A stretch of DNA of 64,000 nt from the NCBI GenBank assembly GCA_903850335.1, contig CAINLJ010000083.1, positions 1 through 64,000 of the forward strand, given 5' to 3'. Position numbers and translations under genes: made by a program. Below are positions 5,881 to 64,000 of the stretch, one piece after another. Source of the DNA: an uncultured Bacteroidia bacterium (GTDB taxonomy: Bacteria > Bacteroidota > Bacteroidia > Bacteroidales > Prolixibacteraceae). Each line of letters opens with the position of its first letter. Position 1 is the stretch's first letter. A model generated the notes under the pieces. That model saw nothing but the letters and a program-made list of their open reading frames with translations, had not been told where the DNA came from and did not search any database.

Positions 5881-7797
5881 TTACACAAGATAGACAAAAA
5901 TTAGCACAAGGATTATAGTCCCGCTGATAAATACAAAGGCGTACTGCTGTAGTTTACCTGATTGAAGGCCTTTGATTGAATATGCGGCATACTGTGTAAT
6001 ACCGGCAATACCATTCATTGTACCATCAACAATATGACGGTCAAACCATGCGAGGGGGACAGATATATATCGGAAAATAATCTTGCGGGTAACAAACAGG
6101 TAAACCTCATCCATGTAGAATTTCCGGTGCGCCCATTTATAAAGATGTTTTAGAGTGCCGGCCACTTTATCAGGTATGGCTGTTTCTTTTTTATACATAA
6201 TCGTTGCAATCAAAATTCCAACGACCCCGATAAGCACTGAAGGAACAGCAATCCAATAATCAATGGCAGATTCAAAGGCTTTACCATCCGAGGTGACTAA
6301 ATCTTTGAAAGGCAGGAAACCTGCGAACACAGATCCAAATGCAAGAATCATAAGCGGGATAGTCATGACTTTCGGAGCCTCATGGGGAGTATGGTGATAA
6401 TGGGTATTTTTTCCCCAGAAGATGCCATAATAAAGACGAAACATGTAAAATGCGGTAAGACCTGCAACTATATATTCAATTGCAAACAGCATTTTATTCG
6501 CATGAAAGGCAGCAACTAAAATCTCATCCTTGCTGAAGAATCCAGAGAGTGGCGGGATACCTGCGATTGTAAGACAGGCGATAAGAAAGGTAATATGTGT
6601 TATTGGAAGATGTTTCCGAAGACCGCCCATGTCAGTAATCTCATTACTGTGAACTGCATGTATAACAGCACCTGCGCCGAGGAATAGCAAAGCCTTAAAC
6701 ATCGCGTGAGTAAACAGATGAAAATTGGATGCCATGAAACCTAAACCTTCTTCCCCACCAAAGCCTGAAACGCCCAGAGCCAACATCATATAACCAATCT
6801 GCGACATTGTCGAAAATGCGAGAACACGTTTTATATCAGTCTGCGTACAGGCAATAACTGCTGCAAAAAGTGATGAAAATCCTCCGATCCAGGCCACAAC
6901 ATGAAGAGCATCCGGAGCTCCCAGGGCGAAAACCGGAAACAAACGGGCTACAAGATACACCCCTGCAACGACCATTGTTGCGGCATGGATAAGTGCAGAA
7001 ACCGGAGTCGGACCTTCCATAGCATCCGGTAACCAAATATGGAAAGGAAACATTGCAGATTTACCGGCACCACCAACGAAGATAAATATCAGAGACCAGG
7101 TAAGAACTGACATGCCCATGAAGGCTGCACCTGCTGCCTGAGTAATCGCAGGTCCGTGCGGATCAGTAAGAGTTTGAAAGTCAAATGTTCCTGTATTAAA
7201 TGACAGCATTAAAATACCAATAAGAAAACCAAGGTCAGCAAAGCGGGTAACTATAAAGGCTTTTTTCGAGGCCGCTACGGCACTTGGCTTGTCGTAATAG
7301 TAACCGATTAGCAAGAAGGATGATACACCCACCAACTCCCAGAAAATATACATCTGAAAGATATTTGTGGCAAGCACCAATCCCAGCATTGAGAAGCTAA
7401 ACAGGGAAAGGAAGGAGAAAAAACGATAAAATCCCGGATCTCCCTTCATATAACCAATACTGTAAATATGAACCATCAGAGAGACGGTTGTGATCACAAC
7501 AAGCATCATCACTGAGATGGGATCAATTAAAATTCCCATGTGTATCGTTAGCTTGTCGGTCAGGTGAAGCCATGAAATTTCAAAAGCCTTAAGTGAAGTA
7601 TAGGCAGCACCTGCCACATGACCTGCCCAAAAATATTTGAACGCTGTGGTATAGGCAAGAATAGCAGCAATTCCTAATCCTGAGGTTCCAATCAGTCCGG
7701 ACACAACAGGTTTCATTTTATGCCCTGTAAGTCCAAGGAGCAGAAAAACAAAAAACGGAATCAGCGGAATGAGTAATGTATAGGTATAATCGGCCAT
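5881..7797 (-). CDS. nuoL: NADH-quinone oxidoreductase subunit L
   Basis: A 638-aa distal proton-pumping subunit of complex I. Clear signatures are FWELVGVSSFLLIGYYYDKPSA, AGKSAMFPFHIWLPDAMEGPTPVSALIHAATMVVAGVYL (the most conserved NuoL segment), and IKRVLAFSTMSQIGYMMLALG. The C-terminal ~100 residues form the long lateral-helix region and a final transmembrane anchor, as expected for NuoL. Upstream nuoK ends 32 bp away; downstream nuoM begins 15 bp away. No anomalies seen. Confidence 0.97.
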   Translation of the reverse strand: MADYTYTLLIPLIPFFVFLLLGLTGHKMKPVVSGLIGTSGLGIAAILAYTTAFKYFWAGHVAGAAYTSLKAFEISWLHLTDKLTIHMGILIDPISVMMLVVITTVSLMVHIYSIGYMKGDPGFYRFFSFLSLFSFSMLGLVLATNIFQMYIFWELVGVSSFLLIGYYYDKPSAVAASKKAFIVTRFADLGFLIGILMLSFNTGTFDFQTLTDPHGPAITQAAGAAFMGMSVLTWSLIFIFVGGAGKSAMFPFHIWLPDAMEGPTPVSALIHAATMVVAGVYLVARLFPVFALGAPDALHVVAWIGGFSSLFAAVIACTQTDIKRVLAFSTMSQIGYMMLALGVSGFGGEEGLGFMASNFHLFTHAMFKALLFLGAGAVIHAVHSNEITDMGGLRKHLPITHITFLIACLTIAGIPPLSGFFSKDEILVAAFHANKMLFAIEYIVAGLTAFYMFRLYYGIFWGKNTHYHHTPHEAPKVMTIPLMILAFGSVFAGFLPFKDLVTSDGKAFESAIDYWIAVPSVLIGVVGILIATIMYKKETAIPDKVAGTLKHLYKWAHRKFYMDEVYLFVTRKIIFRYISVPLAWFDRHIVDGTMNGIAGITQYAAYSIKGLQSGKLQQYAFVFISGTIILVLIFVYLV

Positions 7798-8191: not shown

Positions 8192-8707
8192 TTATTTCTT
8201 TAGGGTGCGCTCTTTTTTAGCCACGACTATAGCACCGATCATTGCAGCAAGTAATAATACCGAGACTACTTCGAACGGAAGAGCATACCCATCTCTTTTA
8301 TATGAGATTAACTGATTGCCAATATCCGTGATGTTGAAGTATGGATCGGTTCCTTCAGAAGGGACGAAGCCAAATTGCAGTATAGTCAGCAGTGTTAAAG
8401 TTGCTCCTGCAACAGTTGCCAATGCTGAGAGCAGACTTTGCTTTAATGGAGCCATTACTGCACGCTCGCTCACATGACTTGTCAGTAGGATCGAAAAGAT
8501 GATTAAAACGACGATACCTCCGGCGTAGACCGTTAATTGTACAGCAGCAAGGAAATTATAACTTAGAGCAAAATATAATCCGGCTGTTGAAATCAGCACA
8601 AACAGCAGATATACAGCGGCCCTCAGGACCTTCCTGCTTGTAACTGTGAGCAACGAGAAGATAACAATCATTGCACCAAACAGAAAAAACATTACTTGAT
8701 TTAGCAT
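8192..8707 (-). CDS. nuoJ: NADH-quinone oxidoreductase subunit J
   Basis: A 171-aa subunit with five hydrophobic helices. The segment LRAAVYLLFVLISTAGLYFALSYNFLAAVQLTVYAGGIVVLIIFSILLT is the hallmark of NuoJ, with its conserved VQLTVYAGGI helix. The C-terminal EVVSVLLLAAMIGAIVVAKKE is also typical. The 97-bp gap to the upstream nuoI is the longest inside the operon; I saw no hairpin or promoter in it. Confidence 0.95.
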   Translation of the reverse strand: MLNQVMFFLFGAMIVIFSLLTVTSRKVLRAAVYLLFVLISTAGLYFALSYNFLAAVQLTVYAGGIVVLIIFSILLTSHVSERAVMAPLKQSLLSALATVAGATLTLLTILQFGFVPSEGTDPYFNITDIGNQLISYKRDGYALPFEVVSVLLLAAMIGAIVVAKKERTLKK

Positions 8708-8803
8708 AATTCTAATTCTTTATATTCTGAATCAAATTGTTCTGATAACTACGCATCAGAAAGAATTTATTTATCTGAAAATCTTGTAAACCAGGATTTT
8801 CAC

Positions 8804-9286
8804 TTATTCTTTTACCCCTTCGGCAATCTTCGAACCAGGCTGATTGAGTACTTTTGTTAAAAGTGAGCGGTCCCAAACTGCGTGCTCAAATTTCTGTCCC
8901 ATCACAATTGCACCGGTAGGACATGCCTTTACACAAAGATTACATAGCGTACACATTCCCAAATGGTAGATATGCTGATCGATGATCCTTTTTTTCTTTC
9001 CTTCGGGAGTAACGATTGATTTTGAGATTATCTCGATTGAACCGTTAGGACAATTAATCTCACAGATTCCACAACCTGTGCATAAATGTTCATTGTTATC
9101 CGTATGCGGCATAATCACCTCTCCGCGGAAACGTTCAAACATCACCAGTTTATCACGATTCTCGGGATACTGTTGGGTAACATGATTCCAAGGGGTAAAA
9201 AAGTACTTTGCAGTAACTTTCATCCCGACTAACAGCGTCCAGACCCCTTTGAAGATTGAAACAATATATTCGATAAAAGACTTCAT
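8804..9286 (-). CDS. nuoI: NADH-quinone oxidoreductase subunit I
   Basis: A 160-aa peripheral subunit carrying two [4Fe-4S] clusters (N6a and N6b). Both motifs are intact: CTGCGICEINCP and CTLCNLCVKACP (CxxCxxCxxxCP twice). The N-terminal amphipathic region (FKGVWTLLVGMKVTAKYFF) is the usual membrane-binding helix. It passes electrons toward NuoB. As the operon lacks nuoE, nuoF and nuoG, the electron donor to these clusters is not encoded here. It lies 17 bp from nuoH. Confidence 0.96.
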   Translation of the reverse strand: MKSFIEYIVSIFKGVWTLLVGMKVTAKYFFTPWNHVTQQYPENRDKLVMFERFRGEVIMPHTDNNEHLCTGCGICEINCPNGSIEIISKSIVTPEGKKKRIIDQHIYHLGMCTLCNLCVKACPTGAIVMGQKFEHAVWDRSLLTKVLNQPGSKIAEGVKE

Positions 9287-9303
9287 ATCTACTTATAATT
9301 CAG

Positions 9304-10386
9304 TTAAAAATGAAATTTTGTCAGGACTACAAGTGCCATTAGCAAAATGTTTATCAGATTAATCGGCAGCAGATATTTCCATTCCAGTGTAAGTATCTGG
9401 TCGACACGCAAGCGGGGGAATGTCCATTTAAACCACATAATTATAAACATAACTCCCAGAACTTTCATGAAAAACCATATCACCGGAGGGATAAAATCCA
9501 TCACATGATTAAAGGATTCAAAATTCCCAAAGTGTAAAGGCATCCAGCCACCCAGGAATACGGTTGCAGCTACGGCCGACACTATGAAAAGATTGATGTA
9601 TTCAGACAGGAAGAAAAGTGCAAATTTTATTCCTGAATATTCGGTGTGGAAACCTGCAACAAGTTCTGATTCAGCTTCTGCCAGGTCAAAAGGACCACGG
9701 TTTGTTTCAGCTGTGCCAGCAATAAGAAATACAACAAAAGCTATAATGGCCGGAATATGACCGGAAAAGATAAACCAGGCATCGCGTTGTCCTTCAACAA
9801 TAGCAGAAAACTGCATGGTTCCGGCAAAGACTACCATGGTCATCAGTGAAAGTGAGACAGACAATTCGTAACTCAAGATCTGTGCACCACTTCGCATAGC
9901 ACCAATCAGTGAGTATTTATTATTACTTGACCATCCTGCCAACAGAACACCGATTACACCAACAGATGACACAGCTGTAAGATAGAAAACACCAATATCA
10001 AAATCAAGAGACTGTAATCCCGGAGCAAATGGAAGAACTGCTATAGCCAGGAAAGAGGCAATAATAACAATAAAAGGAGCAAGATTATATAAAAACCAAT
10101 CCGCCTTACGAGGCATGATCAGCTCTTTCATCAGCAGTTTTATGAAGTCAGCAATTGTTTGAAGCAATCCCCATTTCCCAACTCTCATAGGACCTAAACG
10201 CTGTTGAAATGCCGCACAAACCTTACGTTCGGCATAAACCAGAAACAGGCCAAAAAGTGCAACGAAAGTCAGGTAAGCAAGACCGACAAGCACCCACTCA
10301 ATGGTAGTGGCAATAAAGGGAGAAAAACTTTTGGCTAAACCCTCATGAATACTGTGTGTTAACGATGTAAAGTTGTAAAAATCCAT
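9304..10386 (-). CDS. nuoH: NADH-quinone oxidoreductase subunit H
   Basis: A membrane subunit of 360 aa forming the quinone entry chamber with NuoB and NuoD. Signatures are YAERKVCAAFQQRLGPMRVGKWGLLQTIADFIKLLMKE, AETNRGPFDLAEAESELVAGFHTEYSG and the acidic loop residues between these helices. I chose the ATG at 10386; the frame extends to a TTG at 10422 that would add 12 residues unlike the family and overlap the nuoD end closely. Sequence after the last helix (FPRLRVDQILTLEWKYLLP) is standard. Confidence 0.96.
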   Translation of the reverse strand: MDFYNFTSLTHSIHEGLAKSFSPFIATTIEWVLVGLAYLTFVALFGLFLVYAERKVCAAFQQRLGPMRVGKWGLLQTIADFIKLLMKELIMPRKADWFLYNLAPFIVIIASFLAIAVLPFAPGLQSLDFDIGVFYLTAVSSVGVIGVLLAGWSSNNKYSLIGAMRSGAQILSYELSVSLSLMTMVVFAGTMQFSAIVEGQRDAWFIFSGHIPAIIAFVVFLIAGTAETNRGPFDLAEAESELVAGFHTEYSGIKFALFFLSEYINLFIVSAVAATVFLGGWMPLHFGNFESFNHVMDFIPPVIWFFMKVLGVMFIIMWFKWTFPRLRVDQILTLEWKYLLPINLINILLMALVVLTKFHF

Positions 10387-10427
10387 ATTGAAAATATCTT
10401 TAGCGTCAGTTTTAATCTTCAATGTTA

Positions 10428-11561
10428 TTAGCGGTCAATATCTGGTATGATAAGATCGAGAGTCGACATAATTGCTACAAGGTCGGCGATTTTATGACCC
10501 TTAGTCATTTTATTAAGTGCAAACAGATTTGAAAAACCCGGTGAGCGGAATTTAACACGATATGGATTTTTCTTGCCATCGCTGATAATAAATACCCCAA
10601 ATTCACCTCTGGCGCTCTCAACCCTCTGATAGAACTCACCTTCAGGAAGTTTCAATACACCCTTCATCTTAACAGCATAATCACCCTCAGGAATATTATC
10701 GATTAATTGTTCGATTATATTCAGAGATTCATACATTTCTTTGATGCGTACCTCATAGCGGGCGAGCGTATCACACCTGAAATCAAGAATCTCATTGAAT
10801 TTTACAAATGGATAAGCGCTGTAAGGCTGGTTTTTACGTACGTCGCACGAAAATCCTGAGGCTCTTCCCGATGGACCGGTCACACCAAAAGCTATAGCAT
10901 CATTTAACGAAAGATGCCCGATGCCTTCGGTACGTTCCCTTAAAATGACATTCCCTGATAATAACTTGTCGTATTCTGGTAGTTTGGTTCTGAAATACTT
11001 AATGAAGTCCTTAACCCTTTTCTGAAAGTTCGGATGGATATCGAACATCAATCCACCAGGTGTATTGTAACTAACCGTCATACGGGCACCACATGTTTCC
11101 TCGAAAATATCAAGGATTAATTCACGATCGCGAAGTCCGTAGAAGAACGTTGTCAGTGCCCCAAGGTCCATTCCAAATACGCACCACCATAGCTGATGTG
11201 AAGCCAGACGGGCCAGCTCATCCATAATAGTACGTATATATTTAACCCTGTCCGGAACCTCAACCTGCAATGCTTTTTCAACACACAAGGCCACAGCTTC
11301 ATTATTCATGTGAGCCGAAAGGTAATCCATCCGGTCGGTAAGATGAATGATCTGCGGATAAGTTATGGCCTCACACATCTTCTCTATTCCACTGTGAATG
11401 TAACCTGAATGTGGTTGAATATTCAGAACCTTCTCACCTTCAAGTCTGACAAGCAAGCGAAGTACCCCATGGGTAGAAGGGTGCTGCGGACCCATATTTA
11501 CCAGATATTCATCTGTTGCAAGCCTGTCGTTGTTTATAATGACCTCTCTTATTTCGGACAT
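10428..11561 (-). CDS. nuoD: NADH-quinone oxidoreductase subunit D
   Basis: A 377-aa subunit, the 49-kDa homologue forming the quinone-binding site with NuoB. Visible hallmarks are NMGPQHPSTHGVLRLLVRLEGE, PHSGYIHSGIEKMCE and DYLSAHMNNEA. The C-terminus ends VAIMSTLDLIIPDIDR. It is separate from NuoC, unlike the NuoCD fusion of enterobacteria. The stop of nuoC is 4 bp upstream, indicating tight cotranscription. Family and length agree. Confidence 0.96.
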   Translation of the reverse strand: MSEIREVIINNDRLATDEYLVNMGPQHPSTHGVLRLLVRLEGEKVLNIQPHSGYIHSGIEKMCEAITYPQIIHLTDRMDYLSAHMNNEAVALCVEKALQVEVPDRVKYIRTIMDELARLASHQLWWCVFGMDLGALTTFFYGLRDRELILDIFEETCGARMTVSYNTPGGLMFDIHPNFQKRVKDFIKYFRTKLPEYDKLLSGNVILRERTEGIGHLSLNDAIAFGVTGPSGRASGFSCDVRKNQPYSAYPFVKFNEILDFRCDTLARYEVRIKEMYESLNIIEQLIDNIPEGDYAVKMKGVLKLPEGEFYQRVESARGEFGVFIISDGKKNPYRVKFRSPGFSNLFALNKMTKGHKIADLVAIMSTLDLIIPDIDR

Positions 11562-54759: not shown

Positions 54760-57267
54760 GTGATAAAATTTTATCAGCCTCTATTGGGAATTCTTATCTT
54801 CCTTACAATAAATGTGCCTGAATCGTATGCAGGAAACCGGATTACCATAAATAATGATCCGGCAAATAAAATTGTAATCATCGGAGATGAATCAGGAAAA
54901 CTAACGCTTCGTCTCAATTATTCAAAAGGATGTTTTATCGATGAACTAAATTTAAACGGTAAAAATACCCTGGCGCCTTCAGGAACCTTTACTTCCATAA
55001 AGTCCGGGGATAAATTATTTTCATCTGTATCATCAGACTATCAAAAAATTAAAGAGCTATCAGACAACAAGATAAGTATTGACTGTATAACCTTTGGTGA
55101 CAGCGTTCAGCGTGTAACTGAAAAATGGGTTTTTACCACAGACAAAACAGGAATCAGATGGGAAATAATACGGAGCTGTGATCATGAGGAAATTGTGGAG
55201 GATATGGCACTCCCGGTATGGAATTTTTCCGGTCTTTCTGTTTGGAAAGGTGGTATTCTTAATAACGGAGGGATGGTCTGGTGCAAATATCTTAAAAATA
55301 GGTCTGATGCTTTTGGGGTACATACGAATGGCGTAACTTTCTGGAATCCTGAATTGGACAATTGTCTTCGAATTACAGCCTCAGCGGCTAGTGATAAATA
55401 TATTGCTTCAAAGTTTTATCATGGCTTGAAGGATGAATTTTCATTTTCTCAATACCTGACAAACGAGGAACTGCGCCCCCGGTTTAAGCTAAACCGGTTC
55501 GTAAATGGAAATAAGGACGTTTTCGCTCCCTTCCGGGTATTTAACAAACCAGACACGATGAGATTACTTCTAACTGTAGTAAATTATGATCTGGCATTCC
55601 CGGCAGGCAGGCTTCCGGGTATTGACGCATCAGCCGTTCGGGAAATAAGGAATACTACGGCACGGTATGGTGTAATAGATAAGAATATTATGGGCGGAAA
55701 CGGATGGACAACAAACTGGAAATGTTTGCATGAGCCTTTCTTCGCACAGATTGGGCTCTTTGTTGATGACGAAAATTATACCCGGAATTTTTCTTCCACA
55801 CTGGATCAGGAACGTGATCTAGCCACTACAAAAGAGGGTCGTGTACTCTCAAGATGGCATAACGAAGCCGGAGACGAAATGCCAGGTACATACAATTTCG
55901 AGACAGGCTATTACGAAACACAATGGGGTTATACCGTTGATTCTCAAACTGGTTACGTAATAAACACATCGGAACAGTTTGATCTGAATGGTGATCTGAA
56001 CTGGCTGAAAGGACATAAGAAAAGTTGTGAGAACGCCCTTGAATGGCTTATAAGACGCGATTCGAACAACAATGGACTCTTCGAGATGATGAACGACAGT
56101 TATCTGGACAAAAAATGCAGCGACTGGCTTGATGTTGTATATGCGAGTTTTGAGAATGCTTTTGTAAATGCTCAGTTGTACGAAGCATTGAAACAGTGGG
56201 CATCATGCGAATTAATACTGGGAGATAGCCTCAAAGCCAACAAATACAACAAAATAGCATTAGTCTTGAAAAAATCCTTCAATAAAAACGTCACAGAAGG
56301 GGGATTCTGGAATCCTGATAAAAAGTGTTATATATACTGGAGGGACAAAGACGGGACTCCACATGGAGATAATCTCGTGACCCCTGTTGCTTTTGAGGCA
56401 ATTGCCTTTGGTATTTGCGATAATCAGGAAAGAATAAATGAAATACTCAGCACCATTGAGACCCGGATGATAAATGAAAACCTTTTTCACTGGCCCCTGT
56501 GCTTCGATTCCTTTAAGCAGGATGAAGTTGAAAGAGGAAACTGGCCTTTCCCAAATTATGAAAATGGGGATATATTTACTTCATGGGGTTACCTTGGAGT
56601 TAAGTCATACCTTAAATATGATCCCGGAATTGCCCTGAAATATGTCACAAATATACTGGATCAATACAACAAAGATGGCCTCTCCTCGCAAAGATTCAGC
56701 CGTAAAACGCAAACCGGTATCGGCTCCGACATTCTTGCGGGTAATTGCACAACAATAACTGCACTTTATAAAGATATCTATGGTGTTCGTCCAAAATGGA
56801 ACAGAATGGGATTGGAGCCAAACCTTCCGTCCTCGTTAAACGAAACTGAATTTACGTATAACCTAAGAGGAATTAAATATACGATCAGTTTGACCAGGAA
56901 CAATTATGAACTGCGGTCAGACAAATTTGCAATCAAGAGTAATTCTTCGTTTGGAGCTGAAATGGATAAGGAGGATCTTCATTTTTTTGCCGGAAATACT
57001 GAAGAAATCTCAATGAGCATTCATCAATCTGCGAGAAAAAAAATCCTATTCGAAGTGACAAAATGGAATTCCGGTAACTTTTGCTGGACGATTTCCCCCA
57101 GTGACAATTATCGGTTTACAATTTTTGGGCTAACGCCAAATTGCAAATATCTGTTAAGAGTGAATGACAAATCAGAAAATTCGTACATTGCGGATGCTTT
57201 TGGCAAAATCTCAGTTTCGGCTCAATATGTAGCCAAATCGACTTTCGAACTAATAAAAAAAATGTAA
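54760..57267 (+). CDS. Secreted six-hairpin glycoside hydrolase-like protein
   Basis: An 835-aa protein translated from GTG at 54760, the only in-frame start after an upstream stop; no ATG fits. The first ~24 residues (MIKFYQPLLGILIFLTINVPESYA) are a signal peptide. Residues ~25-330 are beta-sandwich-like. Residues ~340-690 have the (alpha/alpha)6 hairpin pattern: FETGYYETQWGYTVDSQTGYV, NALEWLIRRDSNNNGLFEMMNDSYLDKKCSDWLDV and YENGDIFTSWGYLGVKSYL. The C-terminal LPSSLNETEFTYNLRGIKYTISL resembles the closing sheet of GH94/GH36-like enzymes. Family number is not assignable by eye. The esterase gene follows 12 bp later, suggesting joint glycan breakdown. Confidence 0.75.
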   Translation: MIKFYQPLLGILIFLTINVPESYAGNRITINNDPANKIVIIGDESGKLTLRLNYSKGCFIDELNLNGKNTLAPSGTFTSIKSGDKLFSSVSSDYQKIKELSDNKISIDCITFGDSVQRVTEKWVFTTDKTGIRWEIIRSCDHEEIVEDMALPVWNFSGLSVWKGGILNNGGMVWCKYLKNRSDAFGVHTNGVTFWNPELDNCLRITASAASDKYIASKFYHGLKDEFSFSQYLTNEELRPRFKLNRFVNGNKDVFAPFRVFNKPDTMRLLLTVVNYDLAFPAGRLPGIDASAVREIRNTTARYGVIDKNIMGGNGWTTNWKCLHEPFFAQIGLFVDDENYTRNFSSTLDQERDLATTKEGRVLSRWHNEAGDEMPGTYNFETGYYETQWGYTVDSQTGYVINTSEQFDLNGDLNWLKGHKKSCENALEWLIRRDSNNNGLFEMMNDSYLDKKCSDWLDVVYASFENAFVNAQLYEALKQWASCELILGDSLKANKYNKIALVLKKSFNKNVTEGGFWNPDKKCYIYWRDKDGTPHGDNLVTPVAFEAIAFGICDNQERINEILSTIETRMINENLFHWPLCFDSFKQDEVERGNWPFPNYENGDIFTSWGYLGVKSYLKYDPGIALKYVTNILDQYNKDGLSSQRFSRKTQTGIGSDILAGNCTTITALYKDIYGVRPKWNRMGLEPNLPSSLNETEFTYNLRGIKYTISLTRNNYELRSDKFAIKSNSSFGAEMDKEDLHFFAGNTEEISMSIHQSARKKILFEVTKWNSGNFCWTISPSDNYRFTIFGLTPNCKYLLRVNDKSENSYIADAFGKISVSAQYVAKSTFELIKKM

Positions 57268-57279
57268 ATATCACGAACC

Positions 57280-58698
57280 ATGAAAAAGACAATTTGCACT
57301 ACGATTATCTGTTTAGCATTAGTATTGAGCACTTTAAACATTTTCTCTGCAATCAGACTACCTTCTGTTTTAGGAAGTCACATGGTATTGCAACAGAAAA
57401 GTGATGTAAAACTTTGGGGATGGTGTGGACCCTCAGAAAAAGTAATCATAAAAACCAGCTGGGATACAATTACTTATAAAACTACAGGAGGTTCATCTGC
57501 GAAATGGGTTCAGAAAATAAAAACCCCTTCGGCAGGCGGACCCTATTCAATAACAATCAATGAAACAACAATTCTTGAGGATGTTATGATCGGTGAAATC
57601 TGGCTTTGCAGTGGTCAGAGCAACATGGAATGGAGTGGAGATCAAAACCTAAAACAGTGTCTTGATGAAATGCCGAATGCTACAAATAAAAACATACGGC
57701 TTTTCTATGTGCCCAAATCCACTTCTGAATATCCTCAGGAAAATTGTGGCGGAAGCTGGAAAGTCTGCTCGCCGGAAGAAATGAAACATTTCAGCGCCGT
57801 CGGATATTTCTTCGGGAAAAATCTTCAGCAGGCCCTTAATGTTCCGGTTGGACTGATAAACAGCAATTGGGGTGGCACACCTGCTGAAGTATGGACGCCC
57901 AAAAATGAAGTTGAAAATGATCAGGAACTCAATACAGCAGCTCAGAAGATCAAACCAACGGACTGGTGGCCTAACTTGCCCGGATATGCTTATAATGCAA
58001 TGATTTATCCACTTACCAATTTTGAAATCTCGGGTGCCATCTGGTACCAGGGAGAGAGTAATGTTGGGACGTATAAATCTTACAAACAGCTCTTATCTAA
58101 GATGGTAGGCTCCTGGCGCAAGATCTGGGATAAAGAATTTCCCTTTTATTTTGTGCAAATAGCCCCGTTTTCAGGTTATGGAGAACATAATCTGTGTGCA
58201 CTTCAACGTGAAACAATGACAAGGTGCCTCACAATTCCGAAAACCGGTATGACGGTAATTTCAGATCTTGTGGATGATATTAAAAATATTCATCCTGCCA
58301 ATAAGATTGATGTCTCTGCCCGTCTTGCCAACATCGCTCTGGCTGAAACTTATGGCAAAAGTGGACTGATTTATAAATACCCCATGTATAAAGAGATGCA
58401 TATTGAGAAGAATAAAATCAGATTATTTTTTGATAATGCTCAAAATGGACTAGTGTCAAAGGATAAAAATATAACTGAGATTTACATAGCCGGAGAGAAC
58501 AAGTTATTTGAGCCTGCTTTGGCAAAAATAGATGGTAACACATTGATTGTATGGAGCAAATCAATAAAATCACCTTTGGCAGTGAGATTCGGTTTTACAA
58601 ATGCAGGTATTCCAAATCTTTTCAGTAAAGAAGGTCTGCCGGTTAACCTCTTCAGAACCGATGACTGGGATGTTGATACATTACCTGAAAAAAAATAA
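57280..58698 (+). CDS. Sialate O-acetylesterase family protein
   Basis: A 472-aa secreted SGNH-type esterase. Signal peptide MKKTICTTIICLALVLSTLNIFSA. Block I IWLCSGQSNMEWSGDQ holds the catalytic serine, and ISGAIWYQGESNVGTYKSYKQLLSKMVGSWRKIW is the next conserved block; a later VDDIKNIHPANKIDVSARLANIAL carries the catalytic D/H pair (D-x-x-H-P). These proteins deacetylate sialic acids or acetylated xylan and pectin; the substrate is not readable here. It is in one operon with the six-hairpin protein (12-bp gap). Confidence 0.9.
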   Translation: MKKTICTTIICLALVLSTLNIFSAIRLPSVLGSHMVLQQKSDVKLWGWCGPSEKVIIKTSWDTITYKTTGGSSAKWVQKIKTPSAGGPYSITINETTILEDVMIGEIWLCSGQSNMEWSGDQNLKQCLDEMPNATNKNIRLFYVPKSTSEYPQENCGGSWKVCSPEEMKHFSAVGYFFGKNLQQALNVPVGLINSNWGGTPAEVWTPKNEVENDQELNTAAQKIKPTDWWPNLPGYAYNAMIYPLTNFEISGAIWYQGESNVGTYKSYKQLLSKMVGSWRKIWDKEFPFYFVQIAPFSGYGEHNLCALQRETMTRCLTIPKTGMTVISDLVDDIKNIHPANKIDVSARLANIALAETYGKSGLIYKYPMYKEMHIEKNKIRLFFDNAQNGLVSKDKNITEIYIAGENKLFEPALAKIDGNTLIVWSKSIKSPLAVRFGFTNAGIPNLFSKEGLPVNLFRTDDWDVDTLPEKK

Positions 58699-58754
58699 AA
58701 ACCAAAATTTTATACTTTAAAATCTATTACCGGAACGTCCCTGCGGTCGATTTT

Positions 58755-58762
58755 TATCTTTG
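58755..58762 (+). promoter_or_regulatory. Probable -7 box before the sensor kinase gene
   Basis: TATCTTTG, a full TAnnTTTG match, about 48 bases before the ATG at 58810. A short inverted repeat CTGGC...GCCAG (58768-58785) overlaps the predicted transcription start. No clear -33 site. Confidence 0.5.
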
Positions 58763-58809
58763 CCTAACTGGCATAAACTAGCCAGGATTTAAAATTCATA
58801 CCTGGATGA

Positions 58810-61800
58810 ATGATGATCCGAAAATGTATATATCTTATTATCAAATTCGTGAAAATGGTAAACTTTAAAGTAAGCTTACCATTTTCACTGTTTTCACTAT
58901 TGGTTGTCGTATTGATATTCAATCATTTAAATTTATATTCCCAGGATCTCACATTCCAGAAAATAAATTCAGGTACGAGAGCCCCAATTAATTCAATTTA
59001 TATTTGCAGGGATCAAAGTGCCTTTTTTTTCACCGACAGGATTTACCGACTTGAAAATGAAGAGTGGAAGAGGATTAATTTGCCGGTTGAGGGTAGGATA
59101 GGCTGCTTTTATCCGGTTTCTTCAGACGATTATTGGTACTCAATAGATCAGTTAAATTACACCACAATTCTTTATCATCGTCACGATGGAATAAATGAGA
59201 ATATCAGGTCTCCCTTTGCTAATTATATCTCCTTTATTTTTGGAATAACTGCCCGGAAAGTGTTCTTCACCAGTATTGGAGACATGGCTATTTATGAGAA
59301 CGCCGAATGCAGATCACTTCCATCTTTACCCGTAACCAATTCGATTTCAAAGATTAGTGGAAATCAGAGTAATTCTTTATGGGGACTTACTATGAAGGGA
59401 GAAGTGTACCTTTTTGAAAATGAATCATTTAAATGTCACCTTTTCGATAAGCCCATTGATAACTATTGTTTCGCTGATAACTCAAAAGGATTTTTGATCT
59501 CAGAGGATCAGTTGCTTCAATTCAGTAAATCCGGGATAAAAAAAATAATTGTCAATCCTGCCTTTAAACTTGTAAACAAAATGCAAATTTTGGCCGATGA
59601 AAGCCTATTAATGGCAGGAAAAAATGGATTGTTGCTGCGATACTTTAATGGCACACTTTTGAAGCAGGATCTTGTTTGTTCAGAGAGTCTGCTCGGAATA
59701 GCATCCAATGAAAAAGGAGAGATTTGGATTTGTGGTGAGAATGGAAGATTATTGTATCATGGTGATAAAAAGTTTCCGGCTTATATCGCAGACAACCAGG
59801 GCTTTTCGTCACAAAAATTAATCAACTATGGTATTAATACAGATGATGAATATGGAGTTGCCATTGCAGATTTCAATGGAGATGAAAAACCCGATATTTA
59901 TGCCGTCCGTATCTATGAGCAGAACAAACTGTATATCAATAATATGAATTCTCCAAATTCATTTTCCCAGCAACCTGCATTTTTCGAGGAGGCACTCAAA
60001 CGAAATGCAGATGGCAGCATAGAAACAAATCTTCAATCAGATTTTAGTGAGCTTAAACTTGGAATAAGTGCAGCAGACATCGATAATGATGGAGATGAGG
60101 ATATTTACCTTTGTTACCTTAACAGCAACAATAAATTATTACTTAACCAGGGGAAAGGAATCTTCCGAAATGTTTCATCTCAAAAAAACAGGGCTTGCGA
60201 AAATATGATGCGTTCGAGTGCTGCGGCCTTTGCTGATGTCGATATAGATGGTGACCTTGACTTGTTCGTAACCAGTGAAGAAGGAACTAACCGTTTATTT
60301 GAAAATGACGGAACAGGTCATTTTCGTGATATAACTGCCTCTTCCGGCCTTACATCCACCGGTGGTGGTATGTGTGCATCATTCGCCGATGTAAACGGTG
60401 ACGGGCTTCCTGACCTGTGTGTAACTTTCTGGAACCTGCCCAACAAACTATACATGAATAGAACCCGAAACGGGAAAATCCATTTTGAAGATGTTACGCA
60501 ATTAACTGATATTAATAAGATTCCCGCGGCTAAAAGTAATGGGGTTGCTTTTGCCGATATTAATAATGACGGTTACCCTGATCTTTTTATTGCCAGCAGA
60601 AATGCGGAAAACAGACTCTATATGAATGATGGCAAGGGGAATTTCAGAGATAAGACTCATGAATATTTCAAAGCAGAAAACTGCATTAGTAATGGGATTG
60701 TATTTGCTGATTTTGATCTTGACGGATATCCTGATCTATATTTGACTAATGTCGGAGACAATGTTTTGTATAAGAATATGGACGGGAAGTACTTCAGGGA
60801 AGTCACGGCTGCTTTCGGTGCTGAACTTAGCGGTTATTCCACGGGTTGCGCGGTCGGTGATATTGATAATGATGGTGATCCTGATCTTTATGTAGCAAAT
60901 TACATCAACGGAAACAGTAAACTCTTTCTGAATATAAATGAGAGAAAAAGTTATATTAAATTTAAACTTCATGGAGTACAATCCAATAAAGACGCCATTG
61001 GTGCAAAAATCTGGGTTTATAAGACGGGTAATCAAAAGAACGACAGGATGCTCGTGGGATACAGAGAAATTAACGGAGGAAGTGGATATGCCTCTGTATC
61101 CTCCAAAGAACAGATATTTGGATTAAATCATGAAACAGAATATGAGGCACTTATAAAATTCCCTTGTTCGTCTGACACAATCCGTTTGGAACACCTAAAA
61201 AGTGGATCAACATTGAATATAGCTGAGGCTGATATGATGACGGCCTATTACTTTGGGTTCATCAGCTTTATTGTTCGTTTTTTCAAAAACAGCGAGAATC
61301 AACCTGAAATTATCAAATATCTGGGCATTATTCTTATGTTGATTGCATTTAATTTCAAACATGGTAAATCCAATCGGTCGATAGATTCGCTGAGGCTGGT
61401 GTTTGCCATTTCAATTTTTCCGGTTTTTATTGTAACAAACAACATCTACCTTTACAGATGGCCTTCCTTCACATTTTTTGCAGCACCTTTGATTGCAGTC
61501 GGTTTGCTTGCAATTTTTTACATGTACATTGAACGGATACTACTTGTGCGTCAAGGGCAAAAGGAAAGGCAGGATTTACGGGAGAAACTGTCACGCGACC
61601 TGCATGATGACCTTGCCTCAACACTAGGCAGTGTTTCAATTTATGCTGAGACTCTTAAGCAAATGGATCATTCAGCATCACCCGAATACAATAAATTATC
61701 AGCTAAAATAGCATTATTAACTCAGACGGCCCTTCAGTCGATTTCAGATATCATCTGGATGACTTCGCCCCGTAACGATTCACTTCAAAGCCTGATATCA

Positions 61801-62184
61801 AAAATCAACGGCTATCTTTATGAGCTTCTTTCTGATAACAATATAGGGATTTTGTCGAATATTGAGGTCAGCGATGAGCCTGTGATCCTGCACGAAAAAA
61901 TACGAAATAATCTATTTCTCATCAGTAAGGAAGCACTTCATAACATTATCAGACATGCCAGGGCCTCACAGGTTATTTTCAGTGCGTTCATAAAGGACAA
62001 CCAATGCACGATTATTATTCAGGATAATGGGGTCGGATTTTTGAATTCAGAACAAAAGAACAAGAAATCACAGGGGAATGGACTGTTAAATATGAGACGG
62101 AGATCGCAGGAGTCTGGAATTGAATTTTTAATTTCCACACCGGCCCAAGGTGGAACTGTAATTAAAATGCAGTTTAAAATATGA
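58810..62184 (+). CDS. FG-GAP/ASPIC (CRTAC-like) sensor histidine kinase
   Basis: A 1124-aa transmembrane kinase. An N-terminal signal/anchor (~16-45; a second start is the ATG at 58855) is followed by a beta-propeller-like region (~50-330) and then seven FG-GAP/VCBS units with D-x-D/N-x-D-G metal loops (e.g. ADFNGDEKPDIY, AADIDNDGDEDIY, ADVNGDGLPDL, ~349-690). An ASPIC/UnbV domain (~715-790, GVQSNKDAIGAKIWVYKTG) ends the outer part. Several helices (~813-907) lead to a HisKA_3 domain, LSRDLHDDLASTLGSVSIYAE with H932, and a HATPase domain (SKEALHNIIRHARAS, DNGVGF, GLLNMRRR). The class pairs with NarL/LuxR regulators; one starts 57 bp downstream. This domain order is unusual. Confidence 0.9.
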   Translation: MMIRKCIYLIIKFVKMVNFKVSLPFSLFSLLVVVLIFNHLNLYSQDLTFQKINSGTRAPINSIYICRDQSAFFFTDRIYRLENEEWKRINLPVEGRIGCFYPVSSDDYWYSIDQLNYTTILYHRHDGINENIRSPFANYISFIFGITARKVFFTSIGDMAIYENAECRSLPSLPVTNSISKISGNQSNSLWGLTMKGEVYLFENESFKCHLFDKPIDNYCFADNSKGFLISEDQLLQFSKSGIKKIIVNPAFKLVNKMQILADESLLMAGKNGLLLRYFNGTLLKQDLVCSESLLGIASNEKGEIWICGENGRLLYHGDKKFPAYIADNQGFSSQKLINYGINTDDEYGVAIADFNGDEKPDIYAVRIYEQNKLYINNMNSPNSFSQQPAFFEEALKRNADGSIETNLQSDFSELKLGISAADIDNDGDEDIYLCYLNSNNKLLLNQGKGIFRNVSSQKNRACENMMRSSAAAFADVDIDGDLDLFVTSEEGTNRLFENDGTGHFRDITASSGLTSTGGGMCASFADVNGDGLPDLCVTFWNLPNKLYMNRTRNGKIHFEDVTQLTDINKIPAAKSNGVAFADINNDGYPDLFIASRNAENRLYMNDGKGNFRDKTHEYFKAENCISNGIVFADFDLDGYPDLYLTNVGDNVLYKNMDGKYFREVTAAFGAELSGYSTGCAVGDIDNDGDPDLYVANYINGNSKLFLNINERKSYIKFKLHGVQSNKDAIGAKIWVYKTGNQKNDRMLVGYREINGGSGYASVSSKEQIFGLNHETEYEALIKFPCSSDTIRLEHLKSGSTLNIAEADMMTAYYFGFISFIVRFFKNSENQPEIIKYLGIILMLIAFNFKHGKSNRSIDSLRLVFAISIFPVFIVTNNIYLYRWPSFTFFAAPLIAVGLLAIFYMYIERILLVRQGQKERQDLREKLSRDLHDDLASTLGSVSIYAETLKQMDHSASPEYNKLSAKIALLTQTALQSISDIIWMTSPRNDSLQSLISKINGYLYELLSDNNIGILSNIEVSDEPVILHEKIRNNLFLISKEALHNIIRHARASQVIFSAFIKDNQCTIIIQDNGVGFLNSEQKNKKSQGNGLLNMRRRSQESGIEFLISTPAQGGTVIKMQFKI

Positions 62185-62200
62185 CCTTTTAGGGCCATAC
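62182..62200 (+). promoter_or_regulatory. TGACC-N5-GGGC element before the response regulator
   Basis: TGACC, TTTTA, GGGCCAT, overlapping the kinase stop codon and 42 bases before the regulator ATG. It matches the elements at 62881 and 63718 in spacing and in both half sites, but not in the last bases. The following -7 candidate TACATTTA at 62219-62226 is weak. Confidence 0.5.
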
Positions 62201-62241
62201 ATTTAATTCTTATCGTTTTTACATTTACAAAAAATCAGGAT

Positions 62242-62871
62242 ATGGCTATAACAATAGGAATAGTGGAGGATCATACTGAGTTCAGACAGAGTCTTATCTA
62301 TTTGATCGCATCCTTTTCGGATTACCAACTTGCCTGGTCGTATCCATCTGTAGAAGAAGCCCTGGAGCATTTTCAACAAACTGATATCATCCTTCTCGAT
62401 ATCAATCTGCCCGGCATCTCCGGTTTAGATGCAATTCCGGTGATTAAAAGAAGATTTCCGGAACAGAAAATTATTATGCTTACAATCCTGGAAGATGATC
62501 ATCACATCTTTGAAGCACTTCGAAATGGGGCTGACGGCTATATTCTAAAAAAAACTACACCGGTAAAGATTTTGGATGCAATTCAGCAGGTTTATGAGGG
62601 AGGTGCTGCCTTAACACCCATGGTTGCAAGGCAGATAATGGCCTTTTTTAAACCCCAAAAAACACAGTTTCACGAGAGTTCTTCCCTGACGGCCAGGGAA
62701 AAGGAGATCCTTTCGCTAATCATTCTTGGACTAACAAACGAAATAATTGGTGAAAAACTTTTCATCAGCGTTCAGACCGTGCGTAATCATATCAAAAACA
62801 TTTATGACAAGCTACAGGTACACTCCAGAGCCCAGGTAGTCGCAAAAGCAATGAGAGACAGACTCGTTTAA
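62242..62871 (+). CDS. LuxR/NarL-family response regulator
   Basis: A 209-aa DNA-binding regulator. The receiver domain has the acidic pair E9/D10, the phosphoacceptor D53 (IILLDINLPG), T in MLTILED and K105 in YILKKTTPVK. The C-terminal GerE domain reads LTAREKEILSLIILGLTNEIIGEKLFISVQTVRNHIKNIYDKLQVHSRAQVVAKA (~148-203) with the usual helix-turn-helix. It lies 57 bp after the kinase, with which it surely forms a two-component pair. Repeated elements around it (62182, 62881, 63718) are candidate targets. Confidence 0.95.
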   Translation: MAITIGIVEDHTEFRQSLIYLIASFSDYQLAWSYPSVEEALEHFQQTDIILLDINLPGISGLDAIPVIKRRFPEQKIIMLTILEDDHHIFEALRNGADGYILKKTTPVKILDAIQQVYEGGAALTPMVARQIMAFFKPQKTQFHESSSLTAREKEILSLIILGLTNEIIGEKLFISVQTVRNHIKNIYDKLQVHSRAQVVAKAMRDRLV

Positions 62872-62880
62872 ATCTTAAAA

Positions 62881-62927
62881 TGACCCGTTCGGGCTATTGC
62901 AAATAGATTTTCTTTCCGACAAATTTG
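62881..62927 (+). promoter_or_regulatory. Promoter with conserved upstream element, first lipoprotein
   Basis: TGACC (62881-62885), CGTTC, GGGCTATTG (62891-62899), then 20 bases and a -7 box CAAATTTG (62920-62927). The TTG at 62897-62899 can serve as -33. CCCG-TT-CGGG forms a short palindrome here. The whole unit recurs at 63718-63764 with the same spacing. The ATG follows at 62960. Confidence 0.65.
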
Positions 62928-62959
62928 TATAAATATTATAAACCTTAAATCTCTTTGTC

Positions 62960-63499
62960 ATGAAAAGCAAATCACTCCTATTACTAGCTTTATGTCTGTT
63001 TTTTGCAGGTTGTGATAAAATCAAAGATGCTACTGCAATAACAATCCCTACTCATCTGCAACTAAGTATTCCTGTTTCTGCTACTACAGTAAGTATGAAA
63101 TCTGCAGAGGTTACCGGTGCCGTAACTGCTGCCTCATTTAGTACTACACAGGATCTTAATCTGGCTTCCAATGCAGATATTTCTGCATACCTGTCAAAAA
63201 TAAATGAGATTAACATGAATTCTGTTGTGGTTACAATATCCGGATTAAGTGCCGGCCAGACTATCAATACGATTTCACTGAGTGCTGCAGGTATCGGCGT
63301 TATATTTACCCAGACAAATATTACAATGGCCAATAGTTCATTTACTCCAAATGTCACCACGGCTATTCTTAGTCAGTTGGGCAGTAAACTTAAGGCAGAC
63401 AAGAAACTTAGTTTCACTGTATCAGGAACTACAAGCGGACCAATGACCTTCACTGTCGGACTGGATGTCGATACAAAGTTCGTTGTAAATACAATCTGA
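62960..63499 (+). CDS. Small threonine/serine-rich lipoprotein
   Basis: A 179-aa lipoprotein. MKSKSLLLLALCLFFAGC gives a lipobox with the lipid cysteine at 18. The mature chain is rich in Ser, Thr, Ala and Val with alternating hydrophobic residues (VVVTISGLSAGQTINTISLSAAGIGVIFTQTNITM), suggesting a beta-sandwich. No catalytic motif. It sits 88 bp after the response regulator with its own promoter (62881) and a terminator (63522). I do not recognise its family. It is a candidate target of the two-component pair. Confidence 0.8.
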   Translation: MKSKSLLLLALCLFFAGCDKIKDATAITIPTHLQLSIPVSATTVSMKSAEVTGAVTAASFSTTQDLNLASNADISAYLSKINEINMNSVVVTISGLSAGQTINTISLSAAGIGVIFTQTNITMANSSFTPNVTTAILSQLGSKLKADKKLSFTVSGTTSGPMTFTVGLDVDTKFVVNTI

Positions 63500-63521
63500 A
63501 ATATTTGAATATCGTTAGCTG

Positions 63522-63548
63522 AACGCCTGAGAATTCAGGCGTTTTTTT
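63522..63548 (+). terminator. Terminator after the first lipoprotein
   Basis: AACGCCTGA (63522-63530) pairs perfectly with TCAGGCGTT (63535-63543) over a GAAT loop, followed by a T run to 63548, 22 bp past the stop. Confidence 0.9.
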
Positions 63549-63717
63549 ATGCAAATAATTTTTATATATTTGATTTACAATATCATACAATTTTTTTCAA
63601 AATAGACAACGATTAAATAAACTCCTTAATATATTACAGAAATTAAGTATGCATGCACAACTGTAATGCAAATATGAGTATTAATATCAGATCAAATAAT
63701 CCACTTTTTAAATAAAA

Positions 63718-63764
63718 TGACCTAAACGGGCTATTGTTACATGAATCTACAAAGCCGAATTTTG
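63718..63764 (+). promoter_or_regulatory. Promoter with conserved upstream element, second lipoprotein
   Basis: TGACC (63718-63722), TAAAC, GGGCTATTG (63728-63736), 20 bases, then GAATTTTG (63757-63764). Same layout as 62881-62927. The AAAA before TGACC is also shared. The ATG follows at 63802. Confidence 0.65.
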
Positions 63765-63801
63765 TAATGTTTACATATATTAATTCACTAATAATTAAGC
63801 C

Positions 63802-64000
63802 ATGAAAAAATCCATTGTGTTTTTTTTGAGCATTACATTAATTGCATTGTCAATCTCATGTGATTTATTGAAAAAAGATGACCCTGCAGCTTTAGGGGGC
63901 AGTCAGTCACCAATGGGTATGGTTGGGGCAACATCCTCTTCAAGTTCATCCCCCATTGCCGGAACAAGTAATATCTCTGCTTCAGTAACCGCACTAAATG
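63802..64000 (+). CDS. Small lipoprotein, cut by the right edge
   Basis: The first 66 codons of a gene running off the window. MKKSIVFFLSITLIALSISC gives a lipobox with cysteine at about 20, then DLLKKDDPAALGG and a serine run. Composition resembles the neighbouring lipoprotein at 62960, though no sequence identity is obvious. It has the same type of promoter and is probably coregulated. No family recognisable from this piece. Confidence 0.75.
   Translation, partial: MKKSIVFFLSITLIALSISCDLLKKDDPAALGGSQSPMGMVGATSSSSSSPIAGTSNISASVTALN

Follow-up and report, generated by a model that had tools for sequence, protein, structure and literature searches.

The closest described counterparts of the system considered here are NarX-NarL of E. 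coli, the cell-envelope response regulator VraR and, for promoter architecture, LuxR. The NarL heptamer reads TACYYMT, VraR autoregulates its locus, and in class II activation of the LuxR type the lux box lies near -42.5. At the NarL promoters discussed in PMC7419079, a single 7-2-7 NarL site just upstream of the -35 element suffices for activation of yeaR, and one of the two NarL sites required at ogt abuts the -35 element, with its centre at -44.5. For kinases that carry FG-GAP/ASPIC repeats and are paired with NarL-type partners, we found no operator or targets described in search listings of open papers. Here we analysed a 64,000-nucleotide (nt) stretch, hereafter the window, from an uncultured Bacteroidia bacterium of the family Prolixibacteraceae (assembly GCA_903850335.1, contig CAINLJ010000083.1, positions 1 to 64,000). 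At its end lie, all on the forward strand, genes for a sensor histidine kinase of this kind, a response regulator and two lipoproteins, and a short element, TGACC-N5-GGGC, recurs at the promoters of the last three. The original prediction had taken this element for the binding site of the regulator. Our comparisons strongly support the element as the predicted operator of the regulator, and we put the probability at about 0.8 for the full explanation, namely, that it is the operator of a NarL/LuxR-type regulator which would act by class II activation, autoregulate and control surface proteins.

The regulator combines a receiver (REC) domain with a LuxR-type helix-turn-helix (HTH) domain and aligns with NarL from end to end. 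Its nearest solved chains are those of VraR and NarL, VraR (7ve6) being the best solved-structure match by sequence; against the NCBIfam NarL equivalog (nitrate/nitrite) it scored 128.9 bits, below the 250-bit cut-off. As with NarL, the site is an inverted repeat with a centre that fits the 7-2-7 frame, the heptamer borders not being readable from the sequence, and, as at yeaR, a single site abuts the -35/-33 element (PMC7419079). Unlike NarX-NarL, the present system has half-sites of the form TGACCY and TAGCCY, a Bacteroidota promoter, an FG-GAP/ASPIC-repeat kinase, predicted surface-protein targets and a regulator promoter placed at the kinase stop codon. VraR belongs to a different phylum, and its system has a kinase without FG-GAP repeats as well as an operator and targets that differ from those in the window. 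The predicted dyad centre, at about -41 to -43, resembles that of the lux box in overlapping the -35/-33 element, although LuxR is an autoinducer receptor and the regulator studied here a REC-domain response regulator.

Copies of the element around the regulator gene

The three copies were all found where they had been predicted: before the regulator gene (62182-62200, TGACCTTTTAGGGCCATAC), 10 nt after the regulator stop codon (62881-62899, TGACCCGTTCGGGCTATTG) and before the second lipoprotein gene (63718-63736, TGACCTAAACGGGCTATTG). In the second predicted operator, an 18-bp dyad occupies positions 62880-62897, and the TTG of the -33 box positions 62897-62899. Each copy is followed by a -7 box, namely, TACATTTA at 62220-62227 for the regulator, CAAATTTG at 62920-62927 for lipoprotein 1 and GAATTTTG at 63757-63764 for lipoprotein 2. 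Between the end of TATTG and this octamer lie 20 nt at both lipoprotein promoters, as claimed, and 19 nt at the regulator promoter. The copy before the regulator is indeed the weakest of the three, with 3 mismatches. The original prediction missed that the TGA with which this copy begins also terminates the kinase gene (58810-62184).

The full form of the element, TGACC-N5-GGGCYAT (TGACCNNNNNGGGCYAT), has only 3 matches in the 5,545,537-base genome, all of them within 1.6 kb of the regulator, compared to 0 in the backwards control, so that the frequent genome-wide occurrence that would have spoken against a dedicated site was not observed. The short core, TGACC-N5-GGGC (TGACCNNNNNGGGC), gave 15 matches versus 31 in the control, and the other 12 matches each overlap an open reading frame (ORF) of 80 amino acids or more; the short core alone was therefore rejected as a signal. 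Similarly, TGACCNNNNNRGGCTATTG with up to 2 mismatches matched 46 times in the genome and 44 times in the control, its exact matches being the copies at 62881 and 63718 and none being listed with one mismatch. Because these looser forms are at background, it is the longer form and its position that are special, not the short core. Elsewhere in this genome, we found no further targets with 0-1 mismatches, and the two-mismatch matches equalled the control. The TGACCNNNNNGGGCYAT pattern is present in 65 of 149 relatives (the genome of the window included), mostly once or twice; these counts are background-like, as expected, apart from the genomes that are treated singly below. A role as an RNA element was rejected, as no Rfam family was found at 57000-64000 at the gathering threshold and the -7 box comes only after the site.

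Two nearly identical copies at a distance of 0.8 kb could also be the product of a duplicated promoter or of a small repeat family without a regulatory role. We consider this explanation almost certainly wrong: the two 20-nt spacers agree at just 5 of 20 positions while the dyad is kept, and the element is conserved across homologues with 60-72% protein identity and in unlinked loci.

Conservation of the element with the regulator

Close homologues of the regulator (60-100% identity) were compared at 16 distinct loci, the one in the window counted, of which 12 came from a search of named genomes (61-72% identity) and four, all from one other genus of the same family, from a search of relatives (60-65%). 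Relatives contributed 14 regulator loci besides that of the window, and the element reading left out eight more distant ones (L057-L064). L081 is on the same contig as G024, and L082 and L084 come from one assembly. In 15 of the 16 loci, the element lies 57-64 nt before the regulator start, with 0-4 mismatches to TGACCNNNNNRGGCTATTG, and opens with the TGA that ends the kinase gene; the upstream sites were filtered for an initial TGA, whereas the kinase stop codons themselves were found without that filter. This recurrence at the regulator's own promoter upholds the predicted autoregulation through a site of the regulator at 62242. A downstream copy stands 5-71 nt behind the regulator stop in 13 of the 16 loci: 11 copies, with that of L084 a variant, were obtained by consensus collection, and those of L080 and L067 were added by the position matrix. 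L074 and L077 have a copy further downstream of the regulator. No such element was found at the more distant regulators L085 (44% identity), L069 and L070 (43-46%) and L086 (31%). Nor was there one before the kinase gene, either in the window (best 6 mismatches) or in 12 homologous loci (best 4-6), so that only the regulator is predicted to be autoregulated.

To the same effect, presence of the strict element (TGACCNNNNNRGGCTATTG) coincides with that of the regulator (called at E<=1e-60) across genomes. In a draw of 393 genomes of the order, the strict element occurs in 14; all four genomes with the regulator carry it, compared to 10 of the 389 others (Fisher p 1.0e-6). These four contain 2, 2, 2 and 4 copies, and all ten are within 6.4 kb of the regulator. 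G354, from the genus of G257, G434 and G497, has neither kinase nor regulator (both at E<=1e-60) and no element. In a draw of 140 genomes of the family, five have the regulator and five the strict element. Both are present in G000, G024 and G066. G087 has the element together with a kinase match that ends 1 nt from the contig end, for which reason its regulator is probably off the contig. In G032, a single element match precedes an ORF of a different kind by 39 nt, and there is no regulator at E<=1e-60. G074 and G081 carry the regulator, and their sites differ from the strict form at one or two bases. Since the site accompanies the regulator in the related genomes compared, it is very probably the regulator's switch site.

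The lipoprotein genes provide a second comparison. Homologues of lipoprotein 2 were found in 20 of 149 relatives at E<=1e-6, and the element with 0 mismatches lies 77-90 nt before the homologue in exactly G000, G024, G066 and G087, which are the lipoprotein-2 genomes where a kinase or regulator is present. In the remaining 16, none of which has the regulator at E<=1e-40, the upstream DNA differs from the element at 4 or more positions (p 2e-4). In G024, 39 kb separate the copy from the regulator; the copy and the regulator of G066 are on different contigs, as are the copy and the kinase of G087. Another genome of the genus to which these three belong, G055, has the lipoprotein-2 family, no kinase or regulator at the thresholds used and no element. 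On a tree of the lipoprotein-2 proteins, the element label needs two changes, forced by well-supported branches, which may reflect two recruitments, or one gain and one loss. Lipoprotein 1 has homologues in 21 genomes, and among the upstream DNA read the element is present only at the copy in the window; of the 22 loci, L185 and L189 were not recovered, L186 is without upstream sequence, and L177 and L194 are the same gene. One homologue, L190 (G070:C358), has an in-frame TAA near its start and is perhaps a pseudogene or an assembly error. Equal occurrence of the element before homologous genes in genomes lacking the regulator, which would have contradicted the original prediction, was seen for neither gene: lipoprotein 2 has it in 0 of 16 such genomes compared to the 4 with kinase or regulator, in keeping with its predicted control, and the same-genus copies of lipoprotein 1 in G001, G006 and G013 (50-60% identity, no regulator) have none.

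The same data bear on whether some other DNA-binding protein binds the element, which would then be linked to the locus by history only. Paralogues of the regulator are numerous in these genomes, a first look at those listed giving between 15 and 135 candidates. Nevertheless, the lipoprotein-2 sites of G024, G066 and G087 are in genomes with the kinase, and G055 in the same genus, with the lipoprotein family but no kinase or regulator at the thresholds used, has no site; furthermore, the L084 regulator, with TVRS for TVRN in the helix, has a diverged site. We therefore regard a different binding protein as very unlikely and retain the regulator itself as the predicted binding protein. At L084 (about 5940-5965 and 6641), the changed recognition-helix region and the diverged operator may form a natural specificity pair. 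L085, a paralogous regulator with 44% identity on the contig of L083, has its own dyad at about 5930-5952, TACTATCC-N4-GGATAGTA, which, as read by eye, a -7-like box follows at a similar distance; this geometry may be shared by other NarL-type regulators, each with half-sites of its own.

Dyad structure and promoter geometry

Across the 37 collected sites, the best symmetry centre falls between element positions 8 and 9. Pairs are complementary at T1-A16 in 37/37 sites, at C4-G13 and C5-G12 in 36/37 each, at A0-T17 in 33/37, at 6/11 in 25/37 and at 7/10 in 16/37, compared to 3/37 at 2/15 and 0/37 at 3/14. Within the heptamers, three of the seven pairs are accordingly complementary in 36-37 of the 37 sites, a fourth in 25 and a fifth in 16. 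Position 6 is a pyrimidine throughout (21 C, 16 T), and its covariation with position 11 is suggestive only (p 0.07). The half-sites, TGACCY and TAGCCY, make up an imperfect 18-bp dyad, A-TGACCY-NNNN-RGGCTA-T, which in a NarL-like 7-2-7 frame reads TGACCYN-NN-NRGGCTA; the centre fits this frame and also one formed by the outer seven pairs around 4 central bp. G066 and G074 contain some copies in which each of these outer pairs is complementary (ATAGCCCCAATGGGCTAT). Applied to the 16 loci, a 48-column matrix built on the sites gave 37 hits, of which 34 were training sites, versus 0.2 per shuffled set.

The dyad has a fixed register with respect to the core promoter. Its last base is the T of the TTG in the -33 box, which it abuts, and the gap from the element to the -7 octamer is 20 nt in 17 and 19 nt in 2 of the 19 target promoters, and 19 or 20 nt in 14 of 15 regulator promoters; at three sites distant from the regulator, the gap, read by eye, is also 20. 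The -33 TTG is kept in 20 of 22 target promoters compared to 2 of 15 regulator promoters (p 2.6e-6), a contrast that is inflated by the consensus-based choice of target sites and does not count three copies added by the matrix. Because the TTG is mostly lost there, the regulator promoter appears to be the weaker and more activator-dependent one. Bacteroides promoters have TAnnTTTG at -7 and TTTG near -33 (PMC7366714); the octamers studied here, with TTT at fixed columns, together with the TTG at -33 in 20 of 22 targets, are those of a sigma-ABfr-type promoter. With the start site placed by the -7 box, the dyad centre would lie about 41-43 bp before it. A site centred near -42 from such a start and in fixed register with the core promoter corresponds to the class II arrangement.

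The fixed distance to the -7 box and the -33 TTG inside the element would also be features of an extended promoter of an alternative sigma factor, with no regulator site at all. This is extremely unlikely, given that the -7 octamer follows the TAnnTTTG pattern of housekeeping promoters (consensus from PMC7366714), that the element forms a dyad which extends to about -50, and that its presence tracks the kinase/regulator pair.

The original prediction had left open whether the regulator represses or activates. By position alone, the regulator may also repress, because the site touches the -33 box: the same regulator on the same operator could cover this box through the overlap of the last dyad base with the TTG, block sigma and be relieved by the signal, and the targets with the TTG (20/22) and a good -7 box could fire unaided. 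We consider repression unlikely. The position of a repressor is free, whereas a fixed -7 register across non-homologous promoters suits an activator that contacts the polymerase; only 2 of 15 regulator promoters retain the TTG, a loss to be expected where a promoter depends on an activator; and the NarL sites abutting -35 that PMC7419079 describes are activating. The fixed register against -33 and -7 thus favours activation, and class II activation is the most likely mode because the dyad centre lies about 41-43 bp before the predicted start and abuts the -33 TTG.

Several observations weigh against the explanation as a whole. The window's own regulator site is among the weakest collected, and L084, with its diverged upstream site behind a kinase gene that likewise ends with TGA, and L066, with no copy behind the regulator, depart from the pattern. 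Two of the seven pairs of the 7-2-7 frame (2/15 and 3/14) are non-complementary in nearly all sites. As the sites were gathered by consensus, some of the statistics are partly selected; target sites needed at least 12 of 14 positions including the TTG, and regulator-promoter sites an initial TGA. In the order draw, G257, G434 and G497 correspond to the contigs of L083, L076 and L078, so that the count of four in four and the footprint at the 16 loci are not independent. If G087 is counted as being without the system, the lipoprotein-2 contrast becomes 3/3 versus 1/17. G066 and G074 have the regulator, and yet their lipoprotein-1 homologues are without a site. Finally, a -33 motif was not identified in Flavobacterium johnsoniae (PMC7366714).

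The proposed two-component circuit and its predicted outputs

On the basis of the sites, dyad, spacing, conservation and co-occurrence, all read from sequence, we infer regulator binding, a dimer, phosphorylation, activation over repression, the start sites and a signal. In the proposed mechanism, the FG-GAP/ASPIC kinase would sense this signal and the regulator would be phosphorylated. The phosphorylated dimer would bind the 18-bp dyad and, as a class II activator, recruit RNA polymerase to a Bacteroidota housekeeping promoter. In this way, acting on a promoter nested where the kinase gene ends, at its stop codon, the regulator would increase its own expression and switch on neighbouring cell-surface proteins, namely, the two lipoproteins in the window and, in relatives, other lipoproteins and FISUMP-type or type-IX-sorted proteins.

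The predicted kinase (58810-62184, 1124 amino acids, stop TGA 62182-62184) has an N-terminal hydrophobic segment followed, by Pfam and sequence reading, by FG-GAP repeats, which contain six DxDxDG-type loops in the ectodomain, and ASPIC/UnbV. Transmembrane-like segments at about residues 857-913 precede HisKA_3 with His932 (25.6 bits, cut-off 24) and a HATPase_c domain just below its cut-off (24.2 versus 26.4). Among eight homologous kinases scanned, all have FG-GAP repeats and seven a HisKA_3 match at E 0.001. The HisKA_3 kinase gene adjoins the regulator gene, as a NarL/FixJ-type pair would require. The regulator (62242-62871, 209 amino acids) consists of a receiver (PF00072, 72.2 bits) followed by a GerE HTH (PF00196, 68.3 bits), both above cut-off. 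Asp53 in LLDINLPG and Lys103 in ILKK are kept in the 16 homologues, and TVRNHIKN is the recognition-helix region. The residues expected of a working two-component pair, His932 in the kinase and Asp53 and Lys103 in the regulator, are accordingly present in the sequences.

Lipoprotein 1 (62960-63499, 179 amino acids, lipobox FAGC) has no Pfam or NCBIfam family. Lipoprotein 2 (219 amino acids) runs off the window (63802-64000; 63802-64461 on the contig); its homologues elsewhere bear the predicted operator, no NCBIfam family was found for the full protein, and no Pfam family for the first 66 amino acids, those in the window. The predicted models are of fair quality, with a mean predicted local distance difference test score (pLDDT) of 87.6 for lipoprotein 1 and 82.5 for lipoprotein 2. 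Comparison with PDB gave only weak matches for lipoprotein 1 (TM-score <=0.46 among the 50 matches listed) and none with E <0.001 for lipoprotein 2.

In the homologous loci, the downstream copies mostly stand before varied secreted proteins, including a FISUMP protein (L073), a FISUMP protein with a type-IX sorting tail (L079), a protein with a type-IX sorting tail (L075) and lipoproteins (L068 and L083). Ten of the proteins behind downstream sites were scanned, and 5 have no Pfam match and 2 more weak ones only. Several of the loci L073-L080 have related large surface proteins in common. Tentatively, and with somewhat less than even confidence, the locus may be described as a kinase/regulator cassette with an exchangeable cargo slot, in which a fixed operator-promoter behind the regulator would serve surface proteins that vary by lineage, the operator also standing before unlinked copies of one lipoprotein family, apparently acquired twice.

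In L065 and L067, no long ORF follows for about 500-600 nt behind the downstream site. The gaps in genus g8 from the operator copy to an esterase gene (L067 7210-7704, L068 9968-10525, L065 3532-4133) are each about 500-600 nt without a long ORF and possibly correspond to a long leader or small genes; a conserved leader before the esterase gene was rejected, as an alignment of four regions gave little. The esterase (61-64% identity) lies 0.3-2 kb behind the regulator in L065, L066, L067 and L068, that is, in all four genus g8 loci, and a SASA-type esterase gene directly precedes the kinase in the window (57280-58698), a neighbourhood hinting at a polysaccharide-linked role. Beyond the window end, L004 contains a 914-amino-acid gene (8207-10951) on the minus strand, opposite to the lipoprotein genes, with a weak kojibiose-hydrolase match (34.8 bits, cut-off 800).

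In a tree of kinase plus regulator, the system in the window joins L073-L080 with 99/98 support, the four systems of its own family being placed elsewhere, and no regulator was found at E<=1e-60 in the 17 other sampled genomes of its genus. Horizontal acquisition and widespread loss are both possible.

Judging from these features, this is a two-component system of the NarL type, with a predicted operator in an unusual place and a changeable surface cargo. If the cargo-slot reading is true, changing cell-surface proteins would be expressed from a site anchored to the regulator. With this analysis, one FG-GAP/ASPIC-NarL-type system gains a predicted operator, a promoter geometry and a target set, and G055, with the target family and without kinase, regulator or site, in the genus of G024, G066 and G087, is a ready natural control. 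Thus, the ligand and the output become testable. The operator at the kinase stop codon and the changing downstream gene suggest a way in which a surface-sensing circuit can swap its outputs while its wiring is kept.

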